Below are positions 3,777 to 44,062 of a stretch of DNA of 64,000 nucleotides, piece after piece. Location: NCBI GenBank assembly GCA_947303395.1, contig CAMYYD010000003.1, positions 1 to 64,000 on the forward strand, written 5' to 3'. The stretch is from an uncultured Bacteroidales bacterium. GTDB taxonomy: Bacteria; Bacteroidota; Bacteroidia; Bacteroidales; F082. How positions within the stretch are numbered: the first letter of the stretch is position 1; each line of letters opens with the position of its first letter. A model generated the notes under the pieces. That model did not search any database. It saw nothing but the letters and a program-made list of their open reading frames with translations, and was not told the DNA's origin. Made by a program: the position numbers and the translations under genes.

Positions 3777-5492
3777 ATGTATGTCATGAAAAGACTGTTA
3801 CCTTACTTGATTGTTGCATTGTTTCTTGTCGCTTGCGGCAAGAAAGTTGAGATCATTGAGCCGCCTTTTGTTTTTGACGACAATCTATTGCAAATCGACA
3901 GTATGATGCAGCACGATGCCGACTCCGCCCTGCAAATGCTGCTGTCATTCCGAGCGGAGCGAGGAATCTCATATGAATTCAACGACAACTATCATTCGCT
4001 TATCCTCTCCGAAGCATTTTACAAAACCTATAATCCGCAATTAAACCGATATTGTTGTGAGACGTGCCATGGCGCGTCTCTACAGGACGCCATGCATTAT
4101 TTTGACAGCCTCGCCTTTCGATATCCCGATAACGATGACATCACTATGCTTTCCGCCCGCTCACACTACATGAACGGCGTTGGTTTTTATGAAAACGACA
4201 GCATTGTGGAGGCTTGCAAAGAATATCTGCACACATTGGAGATAATGGAAGATCATTTCGACGAAAAAGATTTGGTGGGGTACAAGGCGAAGTTTATAGG
4301 GTTGACATATACCAGGTTGGGAGAAGTCTATTATTATTATGGAATTGCTAAAGCTTCCATTGAATTATACGAGAACGCATTGTTTTACTTTAAGAGAGTG
4401 CCCAATTACGACCTTGCAAATACATACAGGCACATCGGTGGATCATATCGTTATTATAATAACAACGACAGCGCTTTGCTTTATTATAGGGAAGCCATCC
4501 ATTTGGCAAAAAAACAGCATAATATCACCATTTATGGTGCCTCTTTATCAGAATCTGCTCCTATATATTATTCTATGGGATATAAAGACAGCGCATTTTT
4601 ATTGATTAAAAAGGCACTATCTATGCCAATTTTTGATGATGCTCGTTTAGCTCAGTATTATACACTCGGTCTTTTGTTTGAAGCAGAATGTCAATACGAT
4701 TCTGCAATATTCTATCTTGAAAAAAGCTTGAATCGCATAAACTACGCAACACAGACGGCATCTGCCGATCTTCTAATGAAATGTTGTCAAGCTATAGGAG
4801 ATACGACGAAATTTCTATATTATAAGTCAGTATATGGCAACAATTTTTCTAAGTTTAGAAACAATTCGATAATTGAAACAAATTTGGTAATATTATTTGA
4901 AACATATAAGGAAAATAGATTACAAATAATAAATAATATAAATGCAAAAAGTCGTAACAAACAAAAAGTTTTAATATTGTTTTCGATTTTGACAGTTATT
5001 ATCACTATATTTTATAAGATAAAGATTCATAACACCATTGTAAAATCGAATAAAAACATTATCGCAAAAGACAAAACGTTAGAAGCCATGAAACGTAAAA
5101 TGGAAGCCAACCCTTTCATTAACGAGTCTATATGTAAAAGTATTTTGGAAACAACCCATATCCAACAGTTTAAATCAAAAGTGAATTTTGACATATATAA
5201 GGAATACGCTTTGAGCAAAGAGCAAATGCTTTTATTGAGAGATGCAGCTGATCGTCATTACAATAGTTTTACACAAAGACTACAAAACGAGTATCCCGAA
5301 CTGACTTATGACGATATTGATTATTGTTGTTTATATCTTCTCGGATTGAAAGATGCTGATGTATCGGCATTTAAACAACGCTCATATAGAGCTGTTTGTG
5401 ATAGAAACAAAAAGCTAAAACATATTTTTAAGACAAACCTTACTGTTAGTATTTTTCTTAATAATCTGGTCAATGACTGTTTTTTAGATTGA
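3777..5492 (+). CDS. TPR-containing lipoprotein / TM sensor-like protein (Bacteroidales type)
   Basis: Lipobox-like LFLVACG, repeated TPR-like helices, TM near residue 400, C-terminal helical domain. Confidence 0.75.
   Translation: MYVMKRLLPYLIVALFLVACGKKVEIIEPPFVFDDNLLQIDSMMQHDADSALQMLLSFRAERGISYEFNDNYHSLILSEAFYKTYNPQLNRYCCETCHGASLQDAMHYFDSLAFRYPDNDDITMLSARSHYMNGVGFYENDSIVEACKEYLHTLEIMEDHFDEKDLVGYKAKFIGLTYTRLGEVYYYYGIAKASIELYENALFYFKRVPNYDLANTYRHIGGSYRYYNNNDSALLYYREAIHLAKKQHNITIYGASLSESAPIYYSMGYKDSAFLLIKKALSMPIFDDARLAQYYTLGLLFEAECQYDSAIFYLEKSLNRINYATQTASADLLMKCCQAIGDTTKFLYYKSVYGNNFSKFRNNSIIETNLVILFETYKENRLQIINNINAKSRNKQKVLILFSILTVIITIFYKIKIHNTIVKSNKNIIAKDKTLEAMKRKMEANPFINESICKSILETTHIQQFKSKVNFDIYKEYALSKEQMLLLRDAADRHYNSFTQRLQNEYPELTYDDIDYCCLYLLGLKDADVSAFKQRSYRAVCDRNKKLKHIFKTNLTVSIFLNNLVNDCFLD
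3944..3970 (+). repeat. Dispersed repeat arm GTCATTCCGAGCGGAGCGAGGAATCTC inside a CDS
   Basis: Encodes SFRAERGIS in frame; related arms at 23108-23195, 25100-25115 and 43880-43919. Confidence 0.8.
4059..4080. repeat. Near-perfect palindrome GAGACGTGCCATGGCGCGTCTC inside a CDS
   Basis: Reverse complement GAGACGCGCCATGGCACGTCTC differs at two positions; encodes ETCHGASL. Confidence 0.75.
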
Positions 5493-23107: not shown

Positions 23108-23195
23108 GTCATTCCGACCGACCGTAGGGAGCGGAGGAATCTCCATCAATTGCAGGAGATTTATTCATTCCATTTCGCTCCGGTCGAAATGACGG
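23108..23195. repeat. Inverted pair of CATTCCG/GGAATCTCC-type arms
   Basis: CGTCATTCCGACCGACCGTAGGGAGCGGAGGAATCTCC ... GGAGATTTATTCATTCCATTTCGCTCCGGTCGAAATGACGG. Confidence 0.85.
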
Positions 23196-24894: not shown

Positions 24895-24959
24895 AATCGT
24901 CATGTCGAGCCTGTCGAAACATCTCATATATTTCTGCAAAGATAGTATTTTTTTATTTA

Positions 24960-25091
24960 TCTCTCGCAGATCTAGCAGATCTAGCAGATTTTTACCTATC
25001 TTCCGAAAATCATCTCCCAGATGCTCGCGACGCGAGCTGCAGATTTCGCGGATTTTTAACGTAATATATATCTGCGTGATCTGCGAGAGAA
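24960..25091. repeat. Composite inverted element, CGCAGAT family, with inner CTCGCGACGCGAG palindrome
   Basis: CTCTCGCAGATCTAGCAGATCTAGCAGATTTTT ... ATATCTGCGTGATCTGCGAGAGA. Confidence 0.9.
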
Positions 25092-30351: not shown

Positions 30352-30604
30352 TCTCTCGCAGATTTCGCAGAAAACGCAGAAATTTTTCTGTTCTTCCACA
30401 TGGATTTAGTTCGCTAAAGCGAACAGATTACGCAGATAGTGGCGGCATTAGAGGCTTTAAGGTCATAAGGTACTTTAAAGACTCTGGTGCCGCTGATCAT
30501 ACCATATCTGCGAAATCTGCAGCTCGCTTTAGCGAGGATCTGAAAGATAATTTTGAGGAAGATAAAGAAAAAATCTGCTTTATCTGCGGTATCTGCGAGA
30601 GAAT
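30352..30604. repeat. About 250-nt composite inverted element, CGCAGATTT family with nested TTTAAGG array and inner palindromes
   Basis: TCTCTCGCAGATTTCGCAGAAAACGCAG ... TTCTTCCACATGGATTTAGTTCGCTAAAGCGAACAGATTACGCAG ... CTCGCTTTAGCGAG ... ATCTGCTTTATCTGCGGTATCTGCGAGAGA. Confidence 0.92.
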
Positions 30605-34870: not shown

Positions 34871-35068
34871 TTTTCGCACGCAGATCTCGCAGAAATCGCA
34901 GAAATCAATTCTTTCGAAAATTATTCTTCCACATTGATTTAGTTCGCAAGCGAACCGATCTCGCAGAGATAATAGCTCTTTAAATACTTTAAAGCGGTAA
35001 CTTTAAAGCCCTTAACGCCATTAATGCCCTTAAGGCAGCCGCTTAATGTAGTTAAGGCTAAAATATCC
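34871..35068. repeat. Composite repeat: CGCAGAT-family half element followed by CTTAACGCC 9-nt array
   Basis: CGCACGCAGATCTCGCAGAAATCGCAG...TTCTTCCACATTGATTTAGTTCGCAAGCGAAC...CTTTAAAGCCCTTAACGCCATTAATGCCCTTAAGGC. Confidence 0.88.
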
Positions 35069-35405: not shown

Positions 35406-35560
35406 TTTTAACATTAATTTATCGTTAATTATTCATTAATTCTTTTCTTTCCTGCCTTAACTTTCATGGAAAACTGATTGTGATAGATTAGTAATTAATG
35501 AAAAATTATATGGTCAATTAATGATAATTATATGTTTAATTCATTGGTAATTATATGTTT
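35406..35560. repeat. CATTAATT/CGTTAATT inverted array (about 10-nt period), copy 1
   Basis: TTTTTAACATTAATTTATCGTTAATTATTCATTAATT ... TAATTAATGAAAAATTATATGGTCAATTAATGATAATTATATG. Confidence 0.85.
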
Positions 35561-36966
35561 ATTTTTCTTGCTCTAATTCCGTAAATTGTTACTATTACGA
35601 AGCAAATCAATGGCAAAATATAGCTCACGTTGACTGCTGGATGACCGAGAATTGTGCCGCAGTCGATTATTAGGCCTTGGAGTGGTGGCATCAGGGCGCC
35701 ACCGACGATTGCCATTACGAGGAATGCCGCGCCGAGTGAGGCATCTTCAAGGCTGACTTTTTCCAATGCGGTACCGTAAATGGTCGGGAACATCAGGCTC
35801 ATGAAGAGACTGATTCCGACGAGGCAGTAGAGACCGGTTTTGCCGACAATTAATATTGCGCCAAGCGAACAAATCGCAGCACAGATTCCGAAAATGGTCA
35901 GGAGTTTTCGCCCGTCAACATATTTCATCAGGAAGGTGGAGATGAAACGACCGCAGAGGAAGAGGCACATCGCGATGATGTTGTAGTTTTGCGCTGTAGC
36001 TTTGTTAACTCCAAGATTATCAGCGTATTGGATGATGAAAGTCCAGACCATGATTTGAGCGGCGACGTAGAAAACTTGGGCGATGACGCCTTCGCAATAG
36101 ACGCGGTTCTTCCAAAGCCGTTCTACCGTGGTTTTAAACGAACACGGATTGCACGAATTTACACGAATCTGTTCTTCCGAAGACTTTTTCGAACACGGAT
36201 TGCACGGATTTGACGGATTTTTTTGGACCTTATTATCCGTTAGATCCGGTAAATCCGTGGTCGAAAAATAAGATTTCGCGGTTGGCACTTTTACGAGGGC
36301 GATGATTATCAGCATAATAATGACGACAATTCCTAGGGCGACGTATGGGTCACGAATTACTGCCAAGTCGTGGAGTCGGATATTCGCTTTTTCGGCTTCG
36401 GAGAGCATCGGGAAGATGATGTTTCCAGCCGCATCGCGCTTGTCGCTCAACAAGTTAGGAAGAACTACCATCGAGGCGACCGCCATTCCTGCCAGGGAGC
36501 CCATCGGGTTGAAAGCCTGGGCGAGGTTAAGACGACGAGTTGCGTTAGCACCACTGGTTGCTGAGCCTGTCGAAGCACCCAAAGACAGGATGAAAGGATT
36601 GGCGGTAGTTTCCAAAAATGCCAATCCAAAAGTCAGGATATACAGGCTAAAACAGAAAAACGTGAAGCTTTGTCGTGCTGCTGCGGGGATGAAAAGCAGT
36701 GCGCCGACGGCATAGAGAGCCAAGCCAAGGAGGATACCGCTTTTGTAGCTGTATTTTCTGATGAAAAGTGCTGCCGGAATTGCCATTGTGGCATAGCCTC
36801 CGTAGAATGCAAATTGAATCAGAGATGCTTTTGCTGCCGGGAGTTCCATTAAAGTCTGAAACGCCGCCACCATCGGATTGGTGATGTCATTGGCAAAACC
36901 CCACAAGGCGAAAAGAGTGGTTATCGCTATAAACGGAACAACATATTTTTTTTCTACTAAACGCAT
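35551..36966 (-). CDS. fucP: L-fucose:H+ symporter permease (FucP-like MFS)
   Basis: LWGFANDITNPMVAAFQTLMELPAAKASLIQFAFYGGYATMAIPAAL; FLETTANPFILSLG; ATRRLNLAQAFNPMGS. Confidence 0.9.
   Translation of the reverse strand: MRLVEKKYVVPFIAITTLFALWGFANDITNPMVAAFQTLMELPAAKASLIQFAFYGGYATMAIPAALFIRKYSYKSGILLGLALYAVGALLFIPAAARQSFTFFCFSLYILTFGLAFLETTANPFILSLGASTGSATSGANATRRLNLAQAFNPMGSLAGMAVASMVVLPNLLSDKRDAAGNIIFPMLSEAEKANIRLHDLAVIRDPYVALGIVVIIMLIIIALVKVPTAKSYFSTTDLPDLTDNKVQKNPSNPCNPCSKKSSEEQIRVNSCNPCSFKTTVERLWKNRVYCEGVIAQVFYVAAQIMVWTFIIQYADNLGVNKATAQNYNIIAMCLFLCGRFISTFLMKYVDGRKLLTIFGICAAICSLGAILIVGKTGLYCLVGISLFMSLMFPTIYGTALEKVSLEDASLGAAFLVMAIVGGALMPPLQGLIIDCGTILGHPAVNVSYILPLICFVIVTIYGIRARKINI
36136..36265 (-). 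repeat. 9-nt period ATCCGT/ACGGATT array, inverted, inside fucP
   Basis: CGAACACGGATTGCACGAATTTACACGAATCTG...CGAACACGGATTGCACGGATTTGACGGATTTTTTTGGACC...ATCCGTTAGATCCGGTAAATCCGTGGTCG; encodes STTDLPDLTDNKVQKNPSNPCNPCSKKSSEEQIRVNSCNPCSF. Confidence 0.92.
36556..36579 (-). repeat. Dispersed repeat GGTTGCTGAGCCTGTCGAAGCACC inside fucP
   Basis: Codes the extra GASTGSATSGAN before ATRRLNLAQAFNP; related GTCGAGCCTGTCGAAACATCTC at 24903-24924. Confidence 0.75.
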
Positions 36967-36979
36967 TTTTTTCTTTTTT

Positions 36980-37057
36980 CGACCACAGATTTCTCGGATT
37001 TGACGGATTTGTTCTTTCGTAGTTTTTTATCCGTTGGATCCGTTTAATCCGTGGTCA
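36980..37057. repeat. ATCCGT-family inverted array, intergenic
   Basis: GACCACAGATTTCTCGGATTTGACGGATTTG ... TATCCGTTGGATCCGTTTAATCCGTGGTC. Confidence 0.9.
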
Positions 37058-38245: not shown

Positions 38246-38268
38246 TTACCACATTTTTTCTTTTTTCA

Positions 38269-38340
38269 ACCACGGATTACTCGGATTTAACGGATTATTT
38301 CGTCCTTTTTATCCGTTTGATCCGTTAAATATGTGGTCAA
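38269..38340. repeat. ATCCGT-family inverted array immediately 3' of the GxxExxY gene
   Basis: ACCACGGATTACTCGGATTTAACGGATTATTTCGTCCTTTTTATCCGTTTGATCCGTTAAATATGTGGTC. Confidence 0.92.
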
Positions 38341-38341
38341 T

Positions 38342-38713
38342 TTATATAACTATCCTTTCTTTTTCCAGTTCTAAAGAACAACCAAAATTATATAGCAATC
38401 CAAGTTTATAACCCGTTGCACGGAGATAATTGTAAACCTGTGAACGATGTGCGTCGTCAAGATCACTGACAGCTTTCAATTCAACTATTATTTTATCGTA
38501 GCAAACAAAATCTGCTTTATATGTTTGCTTTAACACTACACCATCATAAATAATTTTTAATTCCTTTTCACGTTCATACGGAATGTTACGTTTTTTAAAT
38601 TCTATTTCAAGAGCCTCTTGATATACCGCTTCTAAGAATCCATGTCCAAGTGTATTGTAAACATGGAAAGCTGCTCCATTGATTTTATAACTTTGTTCAC
38701 TATATATTAACAT
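38342..38713 (-). CDS. GxxExxY protein (PD-(D/E)XK-like)
   Basis: HVYNTLGHGFLEAVYQEALEIEFKKRNIPYEREKEL; YKADFVCYDKIIVELKAV; QVYNYLRATGYKLGLLYNFG. Confidence 0.93.
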   Translation of the reverse strand: MLIYSEQSYKINGAAFHVYNTLGHGFLEAVYQEALEIEFKKRNIPYEREKELKIIYDGVVLKQTYKADFVCYDKIIVELKAVSDLDDAHRSQVYNYLRATGYKLGLLYNFGCSLELEKERIVI

Positions 38714-38743
38714 ATCCGTTTGATCCGTGCAATCCGTGGTCGT
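38714..38743. repeat. ATCCGT-family arm immediately 5' of the GxxExxY gene
   Basis: ATCCGTTTGATCCGTGCAATCCGTGGTCG; abuts the ATG on one side and the fcl stop on the other. Confidence 0.92.
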
Positions 38744-41082: not shown

Positions 41083-42366
41083 TCAATGCAATTTTATCAG
41101 CATATTTGAAAAGATAGCATCGATTATTTCCTGCTTTACACCGCAATCTTTAGCTATTTCAGGCCAATGTGACGTGGTTTCACATATTTCGTCGATAATA
41201 TTAGCAGCTTCCTTAATGTTATTTTGATGGGCAAAAGCAAGCAAGTCATCGCGAGTAATCTCATCAAACTTCCCGTTTATCGACATCTGATGCGTGGCTG
41301 TCCATCGTCCGTTGGGATTGTAGGCGTATCCCATATCGTAGGCTGGCGAAAGTTTCCATTTTCCACTATCATCCATGAGGAACGAGATGTTTTTTGTGTG
41401 ATCATCCTGGTTGCGAACTACAACGTTGAACACCATTCGACGAAACATTTCCTGAGCTTCGGAATATGATAGCCTCAACGCTCTCATCACATTAAACGCC
41501 TGTTCGTATGAATAGGCGCGATGTAAACGATAGTCGAAATGGGCTATGCCGCAAAGCGTTTGCATGTGAATTTTTTTGCCGTTTTCGCGGTCGAAACGCC
41601 TGGTAAGGAAATGAGCCCGACCGTTTTCCTCAATCAGCGAGCATTCCGTCATCTCGATGCCGCAAGCCTTTGCCAACTTATAAAAAGAATGCTCCAAACG
41701 ACCGTGATTGCCTGTTTCTTTAAAACCAGCCGTTGCCGAAACACCATCCAACTTGATAAGATAATAGTCATATCCTTCAGGCGCTTCCACTTGTCCTGAA
41801 CGCACCTCACCTGTCACTTTATTATATGTAATAATAGCCTTTGCACGTTGTCCTCCAGCGGAAGTCCCAAGTCTTAAAATTTCAGCTATTGCCGCTTTTT
41901 TTTCATCGTTGAGATTAACTCCAAATGATGATTTTTGCGACAAGGCTTCACTTGCGACATTCACCAAAGAATCGATTTCGAATTTGGCATTTTTGTCGTA
42001 GGCGATGTCCATGGCAGGCTCAAATTCCAAGGCCCCCATGCATCGTTTGCCCAAAAAGCACAGCGTTTCAATAGGGTTACTGCTCGTGCGGCCTGTCAAA
42101 GCCAGCCATTTGTCGAACAATGCGCGACCGTATGTATCAGGTAATGAATCTGCCAACATACCAGGCAAACCTTTGAAAGTTTCTTTGTCCAAATCGCCAA
42201 ATGAATAAACGCGTCCCTCGCGCACGGGCATCATCAAAGGTGACGGCTCCAAACCACGTCCAACGAAGCTAGTGTCGTATTCAAATCTGACCACCTCGTA
42301 TCGATCGTCCCATCGGAAAGTGCCGACAGGCATCCCAAACATGTTAACTTTTGCTACATCTACCAT
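41083..42366 (-). CDS. hipA: HipA-like toxin / serine-threonine kinase
   Basis: YDYYLIKLDGV, ARAHFLTRRFDR-like NGRAHFLTRRFDRENGKKIHMQTLC, VFNVVVRNQDDHTKNISFLMDDSGKWKLSPAYDM. Confidence 0.93.
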   Translation of the reverse strand: MVDVAKVNMFGMPVGTFRWDDRYEVVRFEYDTSFVGRGLEPSPLMMPVREGRVYSFGDLDKETFKGLPGMLADSLPDTYGRALFDKWLALTGRTSSNPIETLCFLGKRCMGALEFEPAMDIAYDKNAKFEIDSLVNVASEALSQKSSFGVNLNDEKKAAIAEILRLGTSAGGQRAKAIITYNKVTGEVRSGQVEAPEGYDYYLIKLDGVSATAGFKETGNHGRLEHSFYKLAKACGIEMTECSLIEENGRAHFLTRRFDRENGKKIHMQTLCGIAHFDYRLHRAYSYEQAFNVMRALRLSYSEAQEMFRRMVFNVVVRNQDDHTKNISFLMDDSGKWKLSPAYDMGYAYNPNGRWTATHQMSINGKFDEITRDDLLAFAHQNNIKEAANIIDEICETTSHWPEIAKDCGVKQEIIDAIFSNMLIKLH

Positions 42367-42707
42367 TCCGAATCCTCCTTTTCAACTTTATCAATCTTAC
42401 CCACAGCTCTTTGTCTTGTTTTCGCTTTTGCAGAATGAACCAAATTATAGTATTCATTAGGACTTAACTGCTCTTCCTCTACCAGTGGCTGCAGCACGTC
42501 AAGCATACCCAAAATCCGCAACACTCGCAGCAACGAATCGAACGAGCCGATTTCGCCATTTTCAATCTTTTTAATAGATGACAGTGAAATGTTGGCAGCT
42601 TCCGCGAGACTTTGTTGGGTAATGTTCTGCTTCAGTCTTGCCTGTTTCAGCTTGCCTCCTATTTTTTGACAGATTGCAGCATCCGCTAACATGTAAATAT
42701 TTTCCAT
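42360..42707 (-). CDS. hipB: HipB-like XRE antitoxin
   Basis: IGGKLKQARLKQNITQQSLAEAANISLSSIKKIENGEIGSFDSLLRVL; overlaps hipA by 7 nt. Confidence 0.9.
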   Translation of the reverse strand: MENIYMLADAAICQKIGGKLKQARLKQNITQQSLAEAANISLSSIKKIENGEIGSFDSLLRVLRILGMLDVLQPLVEEEQLSPNEYYNLVHSAKAKTRQRAVGKIDKVEKEDSEW

Positions 42708-42852: not shown

Positions 42853-42887
42853 TCAATAACCTATAAACTATAACCAATAACCACTAA
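42853..42887. repeat. 7-nt period array AACCTAT AAACTAT AACCAAT AACCACT
   Basis: Direct reading; reverse complement resembles 32035-32057. Confidence 0.75.
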
Positions 42888-44062
42888 AAAACAATCGCCT
42901 CCTTTATCTTCTCCACGATATATTTCACGTCGTCATCCGTCACCCACGGACCGCTTGGCAGGCAGATGCCGTGTTTAAACATACTTTCGCTAACGCCGTT
43001 GGTGAATGCCGGAGCGTTTTTATAAACCGGCTGGAGGTGCATCGGTTTCCAGAGTGGACGGGCTTCGATGCCGGCTTTGTCAAGCTCAAGGCAGAAGGCT
43101 TCGGTGTCTAATTCTTTTTTGAAAAGGATTGTGGTGAGCCAGAAATTGCTATCGAAATCGCCATTCGGATTATCTTGAACTGAAATATCCGTTAAATCTG
43201 TGAAATCCGTGGTCGATAAAAATTCCCGATAAAGATTGTGAACGTGTTTGTGATGGTTGATATGATCTTTCAAAACCGTCATCTGACCGCGACCGATGCC
43301 TGCGGAGATGTTCGACATTCGGTAGTTGAAGCCGATGGTTTCGTGTTCGTAATGCAAAAATGGCTCTTTGGCTTGTGTTGCAAGGAAAATGGCACGCTTC
43401 TTGGTAGCCTCGTCTTTGCAAATTATTGCTCCACCGCCTGAAGTGGTGATCATCTTGTTGCCGTTGAACGAAAGCGTCGCGATATCGCCAAAAGTGCCGC
43501 AAGGCTTGCCTTTGTAATACGAGCCGAGTGCGTTGGCGGCGTCTTCAATAATCGGTATAGCGTATTTACGGCTGATGGCGGTTATTTCGTCCCATTTAGC
43601 TGGCATGCCGTAGAGGTCAACAACTATTATCGCTTTTGGCTTTTTGCCTGTTTTGGCCATCCTGTCGTTTATCGCATCTTCGAGAAGCTCCGGCGACATG
43701 TTCCAAGTCTCTTTTTCGCTATCGATAAATATCGGCGTTGCTCCGCAATATACAACTGGGTTTGAGCTTGCGCAGAAAGAAAATGATTGGCACAAAACCT
43801 CATCGTCTTTGCCAACGCCTAAAAGAAGCAATGCCAAATGGATTGCCGCGGTGCAAGATGAAACTGCTGCGACATAGACAGGAGATTTCTCCACTCCCTG
43901 CGGTCGGTCGAAATGACGGGCCAGTTCTTCCTCAAAAGCATCTACGTTGGGGCCGAGCGGTGCTACCCAGTTGGAGCTAAATGCTTCCTGGATGTAGCGT
44001 TGCTCAGTGCCAGTCGGCGACATTTTAGCGAGGCAGAGGTATATGCGGTGGTCAATATTCAT
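42884..44062 (-). CDS. DegT/DnrJ/EryC1/StrS aminotransferase
   Basis: LAKMSPTGTEQRYIQEAFSSNWVAPLGPNVDAFEEELA; SFCASSNPVVYCGATPIFIDSE; SFNGNKMITTSGGGAI; FNYRMSNISAGIGRGQ. Confidence 0.95.
   Translation of the reverse strand: MNIDHRIYLCLAKMSPTGTEQRYIQEAFSSNWVAPLGPNVDAFEEELARHFDRPQGVEKSPVYVAAVSSCTAAIHLALLLLGVGKDDEVLCQSFSFCASSNPVVYCGATPIFIDSEKETWNMSPELLEDAINDRMAKTGKKPKAIIVVDLYGMPAKWDEITAISRKYAIPIIEDAANALGSYYKGKPCGTFGDIATLSFNGNKMITTSGGGAIICKDEATKKRAIFLATQAKEPFLHYEHETIGFNYRMSNISAGIGRGQMTVLKDHINHHKHVHNLYREFLSTTDFTDLTDISVQDNPNGDFDSNFWLTTILFKKELDTEAFCLELDKAGIEARPLWKPMHLQPVYKNAPAFTNGVSESMFKHGICLPSGPWVTDDDVKYIVEKIKEAIVF
43180..43220 (-). repeat. ATCCGT-family 9-nt array inside the aminotransferase gene
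   Basis: ATATCCGTTAAATCTGTGAAATCCGTGGTCGATAAA encodes STTDFTDLTDIS; compare STTDLPDLTDN in FucP. Confidence 0.9.
43880..43919 (-). repeat. CATTCCG/GGAATCTCC-family arm inside the aminotransferase gene
   Basis: GGAGATTTCTCCACTCCCTGCGGTCGGTCGAAATGACGG encodes RHFDRPQGVEKSP. Confidence 0.82.

Follow-up and report, generated by a model that had tools for sequence, protein, structure and literature searches.

The aminotransferase gene and its two in-frame inserts

The window, a stretch of 64,000 nucleotides from the genome of an uncultured Bacteroidales bacterium, contains an open reading frame for a DegT/PglE-like aminotransferase that is host to two inserts, together with a fucose-related gene group in which similar repeats recur (Table 1). 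The ORF belongs to the PF01041 superfamily (DegT/DnrJ/EryC1/StrS, E=1e-90), and the nearest PDB entries are 1o61/4ztc. A more specific identity as LegC (TIGR04181) was rejected, with 355.9 bits lying below the cut-off of 420. The catalytic region is undamaged, as the PLP-lysine stretch SFNGNK is conserved. Immediately past the stop codon is a 7-nt-period array (CTATAAACTATAACCAATAACC, 42861-42883). Between GMD and the aminotransferase gene (41083-42707) lie a HipA-like toxin gene and, upstream of it, a small helix-turn-helix-like ORF.

Table 1. Genes and repeat features discussed, in window coordinates
Feature	Position	Strand	Remarks
CGTC-type REP in coding frame	3944..3969	+	LSFRAERGIS; TPR protein ORF 3777-5492
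CGTC-type REP, intergenic copy	23108..23142	+	
FucP (L-fucose:H+ symporter) ORF	35551..36966	minus	full ATCCGT palindrome in frame
Repeats inside FucP	36142..36266		in-frame ATCCGT palindrome 36190-36266; half arm of older ATTCGT palindrome 36142-36170
Solo ATCCGT palindrome	36980..37057		spacer between FucP and fucose kinase/adenylyltransferase-like gene
ATCCGT palindrome	38266..38340		directly downstream of GxxExxY gene
GxxExxY gene	38342..38713	minus	123 aa; putative autonomous partner of arrays
Upstream 9-nt array arm of GxxExxY element	38714..38743	+	
DegT/PglE-like PLP aminotransferase	42884..44062	minus	392 aa, open ORF; host of both inserts
Insert 2, half palindrome (single arm), 9-nt-unit ATCCGT family	43185..43216	+	codes STTDFTDLTD on minus
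Insert 1, single CGTC-type REP (CGTCATTTCGACC...GGAGAAATCTCC)	43881..43919	minus	codes RHFDRPQGVEKSP

The initial annotation had proposed that two repeat families are read in frame within this gene, and both the array (insert 2) and the hairpin (insert 1) do lie in the frame of the ORF. The core of the array, at 43187-43212, gives its peptide through the minus-strand reading TCGACCACGGATTTCACAGATTTAACGGAT, and the pattern AAATCCGTGAAATCCGTGG, allowing up to 3 mismatches, is matched 9 times in the window, where 0.02 matches would be expected. The array is real, but it is half of a palindrome and no plain tandem repeat; the hairpin is likewise real, but its arms are only imperfect complements.

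That both inserts are extra residues, as had been claimed, is borne out by a protein alignment with 45 relatives and a comparison at the DNA level, in which several orthologues are without them; the excess is about 7-8 residues at site 1 (the hairpin) and about 5-9 at site 2 (the array). At site 1, L015, L016, L018, L020 and L021 have no insert. L009 and L010 share the hairpin there, L012 and L013 have a member of its family read in a different frame (SVISTGADRRSGEIS), L017 and L019 have inverted pairs of hairpins, and L014, L025, L037 and L055 have unrelated repeats. The peptide insert of L055, SPQPSPEGKGG, represents a further repeat family in that loop. At site 2, L016, L018 and L019 lack an insert, L009-L012 have an ATTCGT-type array of nearly equal length, and L017 is 3 residues, or one unit, shorter. 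The alignment and an AF2 model of the enzyme (pLDDT 87) place both inserts in low-confidence loops (pLDDT ~65): residues 51-62 (site 1) are predicted to join helix 38-50 to strand 63-67, and residues 284-292 (site 2) to join helix 264-283 to strand 293-295. The two loops are insertion hot spots, which relatives fill with other repeats; this had been missed by the initial annotation.

Nine-nucleotide arrays, FucP and the GxxExxY gene

The same strand and frame are used in FucP, as had also been claimed, where the peptide is STTDLPDLTDN. In the loop joining the two halves of the symporter, a complete ATCCGT palindrome is read in frame (TTDLPDLTDNKVQKNPSNPCNPC); after it comes an older ATTCGT palindrome, of which the right arm is present. 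FucP orthologues differ at this loop: the ATCCGT palindrome occurs alone in L179, ATTCGT palindromes occur in L180, L181 and L185, GCCAACGGCCAACAG repeats in L182 and L190 and AACTCTAAACTCTC repeats in L183 and L184, and L186-L189 are without repeats there. The chimera of an ATCCGT palindrome and an ATTCGT arm suggests, from its sequence, that one palindrome was replaced by another.

When 1.263 Mb of this genome, taken as stretches (genome completeness 92%), was scanned for repeat periods, peaks appeared at 7, 8 and 9 nt (21, 37 and 47 matches), against 2 at 10. A genome-wide spread of ATCCGT palindromes was rejected, since the copies are concentrated beside the GxxExxY gene, most of them between 36.1 and 43.2 kb of the window; so was the idea that array palindromes are common in genes, as just 2/41 are intragenic, one of them in a doubtful 89-aa ORF. 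Another 9-nt family (CGCAGATTT / ATCTGCG) is dispersed in this genome, with window copies at 24959-25084, 30356-30596 and 34877-34907, and no GxxExxY gene with this unit was found in the genome.

The GxxExxY gene of the window sits between ATCCGT-family arms, 4.5 kb from insert 2. Its protein scores 141.9 bits against TIGR04256 (cut-off 35) and 140.2 against PF13366 (cut-off 22), with the motif at G25xxE28xxY31. The AF2 model (pLDDT 96) shows a minimal PD-(D/E)XK fold, for which the best structural matches are Cas4 SSO0001 (4ic1; Z 9.9, rmsd 4.4 over 100 residues) and lambda-type exonucleases; residues E28, D68, E78, K80, Q92 and Y96 are invariant in 56 sequences. The modelled core fold and the D...ExK active site place the protein among predicted PD-(D/E)XK nucleases, and a Q-xxx-Y motif, here Q92-xxx-Y96, is typical of the RecB/Cas4 branch. 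The distribution of GxxExxY genes is patchy (40/60 genus genomes and 59/118 sampled phylum genomes), and no functional study of the proteins was found in the literature searched.

Arrays with a period of about 9 nt were present near the GxxExxY gene at all 30 genus loci inspected, and the unit differs by locus (ATTCGTG, ATCTGTG, ATCCGTG, TTTCTGTG and others). Inverted relatedness of the two sides was scored by comparing the upstream flank with the reverse-complemented downstream flank, with mismatched pairs and far flanks as controls. Matched GxxExxY flanks scored 23.4 in the genus (n=30; mismatched 12.8, far 9.6) and 21.5 in the phylum (n=29; mismatched 12.1, far 10.6); flanks of DegT genes, the negative control, gave 9.9 vs 10.1, and those of RAYT genes, the positive control, 25.3 vs 19.3 vs 10.4. 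One locus, L152, had no matching downstream arm (score 9), and loci on named plasmids gave weaker flank scores of 9-22, which are weakly supportive. Protein and array co-vary (Mantel r=0.35 in the phylum and 0.52 in the genus, p=0.0002 each), in correlations that still include shared ancestry and base composition. A rule by which the in-gene array is always of the resident GxxExxY type was rejected, being true in G000 (this genome) and G079 and false for the DegT array in G098 and G077.

In seven related genomes, the spacer that separates Fcl from the fucose-kinase-like gene (Fcl-FKP) holds alternative elements at one orthologous place. It is occupied by a GxxExxY gene with ATCCGT arrays in G000 and G098, by a GxxExxY gene with ATTCGT arrays in G079, by a divergent GxxExxY gene with TTTCTGTG arrays in G077, by a four-helix-bundle-like gene (identified by eye) with 7-nt arrays in G093, by a solo 7-nt palindrome in G096 and by nested solo 9-nt palindromes in G006. 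This alternation is the best evidence in the analysis for mobile elements that share target sites. By the criterion used for MITEs, inverted arms are present in the elements, and the empty sites are too diverged for a target-site duplication to be read.

Genes for TIGR02436 four-helix-bundle (S23/IVP-like) proteins (L197-L221) were likewise observed between inverted arrays of 7-nt or 8-nt period, with flank scores of 24.2 matched, 13.7 mismatched and 10.6 far. The copy in this genome (G000:C5:86669-87155) is flanked by a dispersed 8-nt family (AGTTATTCAGTTGTTCAGTT), and an 8-nt-period palindrome at 1620-1714 of the window (AGTTAATCAGTTAGTC / AACTGAATAACTGAAC) is one of about 20 such in the 1.263 Mb.

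CGTC-type REPs and small GIY-YIG genes

The family of insert 1 (family B) has 38 copies in the 1.263 Mb, counted with a looser hairpin scan, vs 0 in the reversed sequence; a stricter genome pattern was too narrow and gave none. The hairpin in the aminotransferase gene starts with CGTCATT, and the base before GTC among matches to the family pattern is T in 28, C in 14 and A in 1. Judged by the published description, insert 1 has the [C/T]GTC end, AT-led stem, CC tail and head-to-head dimers of CGTC REPs. Copies inside ORFs occur in genes for TatD DNase, U32 peptidase, N6-methylase and TPR proteins; the U32 peptidase gene has two hairpin pairs, one of which codes RHFDRPQGAEKS, nearly the peptide of the aminotransferase.

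CGTC REPs were defined in a 2013 survey, which counts RPE-4, RPE-6 and neisserial dRS3 among them, states that a dedicated transposase is apparently lacking and records no tyrosine transposase gene with CGTC REP flanks (PMC3733652). Here, RAYT was rejected as mobiliser of family B, as 97,302 bases around 30 RAYT genes contained 0 copies and RAYT genes carry other REPs. In the genus RAYT genes L302-L308 these are CCCCGTAGGGGTT-type or other REPs, with several repeats beside the gene.

Inverted family-B pairs do flank small GIY-YIG genes at L293 and L295, and family-B copies lie no more than 350 bases from the gene in 11/30 genus GIY-YIG loci, with other hairpins at more distant members. Matched GIY-YIG flanks scored 26.2 (n=27; mismatched 14.1, far 10.4), and 12 named GIY-YIG records gave 32.4 vs 12.4, with the inverted match absent at two of the 12, L372 (Photobacterium) and L376 (Rhizobium L51/94). 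CGTC REPs adjoin the GIY-YIG gene in Rhizobium CIAT894, Azospirillum lipoferum, Sphingobium, Aeromonas and Neisseria gonorrhoeae, and in Sinorhizobium meliloti one was located upstream by the scan and one downstream by eye; reversed controls gave none in any of these. No GIY-YIG partner was detected in the present genome at its 92% completeness, and such genes are present in sister genomes.

Origin of the inserts and relation to known systems

What the initial annotation had missed is that the inserts belong to two mobile-element families that are unrelated and have putative enzymes of different kinds, and that FucP, the nearby spacers and the GxxExxY gene are parts of the same system. Both inserts are quite probably remnants of non-autonomous palindromic mobile DNA. 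Insert 2 would be an arm of a 9-nt-unit palindrome whose autonomous form is a GxxExxY gene with such arrays in inverted orientation on either side. Insert 1 would be a CGTC-type REP, and its autonomous form a small gene for a GIY-YIG nuclease that has inverted REPs on both flanks. We infer cutting, mobility and a direction of movement as follows: the nuclease would recognise and cut the palindrome cognate to it, which may be extruded as a hairpin, and repair would then place copies at new sites or let them replace existing ones. The inserts would have survived because they leave the DegT frame open and are placed in tolerant loops; gain or loss of array units keeps the frame because a unit of 9 nt equals 3 codons.

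It is improbable that arrays and hairpins are instead regulatory or structural features of DNA or RNA, such as terminators or operators, that arose repeatedly, with the in-gene copies produced by local duplication or slippage. Hairpins can act as terminators, and the array palindromes are mostly intergenic and often abut gene ends; against this, FucP holds full palindromes in frame, unrelated families occupy the same site in relatives, the type of repeat tracks the adjacent small gene, and inverted arms are impossible by slippage. Mobilisation by an unrelated enzyme, for instance a RAYT, with the GxxExxY and GIY-YIG genes as passengers that prefer the same sites, is unlikely, if less so. One Y1 transposase is present in this genome, and CGTC-type REPs persist here though a GIY-YIG gene went undetected; yet passengers would not be expected to have cognate repeat types on both flanks, the 97 kb around RAYT genes with their different REPs contain no family-B copy, and the 2013 survey likewise records no tyrosine transposase gene with CGTC REPs at its sides (PMC3733652).

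A very improbable reading makes the GxxExxY genes and arrays a host function (immunity or recombination control) in which the arrays are targets rather than selfish DNA. The Cas4-like fold of the model and the position of the window gene within a fucose/surface-sugar cluster would fit it, whereas the patchy presence of the gene and the alternative occupation of the spacer look like mobile DNA.

GIY-YIG and PD-(D/E)XK folds are tied to site-specific mobile DNA in homing endonucleases. The same nuclease folds are seen here, but no intron or intein is involved, and the enzyme would recognise the palindrome of its own element. In REP/REPIN elements with RAYT (Y1/HUH transposase), a small enzyme gene likewise lies between inverted palindromes with dispersed solo copies; the enzyme here is PD-(D/E)XK or GIY-YIG vs HUH, and family-B REPs are found away from RAYT genes. 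Family B corresponds to CGTC REPs including dRS3 in its [C/T]GTCAT start, its stem, tail and dimers and its ORF copies, and differs in that the REPs flank GIY-YIG genes, where the survey reported no dedicated transposase (PMC3733652). The intervening sequences of 23S rRNA with an S23 four-helix-bundle protein (PMC4990558) are selfish elements that have a small ORF and inverted ends. The TIGR02436 genes between 7-/8-nt inverted arrays are similar in layout, but lie outside rRNA and are dispersed over the chromosome.

Palindromic repeats in frame in protein genes are known from Rickettsia as RPE (Ogata 2000, 2002, as summarised in PMC10969869). The palindromes in the DegT, FucP, U32 peptidase, TatD, N6-methylase and TPR protein genes are similar, in a Bacteroidales host; unlike RPE, the same loops house repeats of several unrelated families, two of which are tied to candidate nuclease genes. 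Insert 1 resembles the superfamily of RPE-4/RPE-6, which are CGTC REPs (PMC3733652), whereas insert 2 is a 9-nt-unit array and no CGTC REP. In-frame palindromes (RPE) and the layout of an enzyme gene with flanking palindromes (RAYT/REP) are already known. A link of GxxExxY, PDDEXK_3, TIGR02436 or GIY-YIG to repeats was not found in the literature searched, which covered few subscription journals or preprints, and neither was the 9-nt array class within the same incomplete coverage.

More broadly, we lean towards the view that GxxExxY and small GIY-YIG proteins each provide the dedicated enzyme for a class of palindromic mobile DNA that is widespread and had gone unrecognised (9-nt arrays for the former, CGTC REPs including dRS3 and some RPE for the latter), with S23 four-helix-bundle proteins serving a third (7/8-nt arrays) and non-autonomous copies adding peptides to host proteins. 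The CGTC REPs, whose enzyme the 2013 survey called unknown (PMC3733652), gain a candidate in the small GIY-YIG nucleases. If these move CGTC REPs, the question of the enzyme becomes directly testable; the superfamily includes some of the palindromes found in Rickettsia coding sequences. A cognate repeat would supply a function for the GxxExxY proteins, common as they are in the phylum, and the DegT and FucP loops present new peptides entering retained proteins across one genus.
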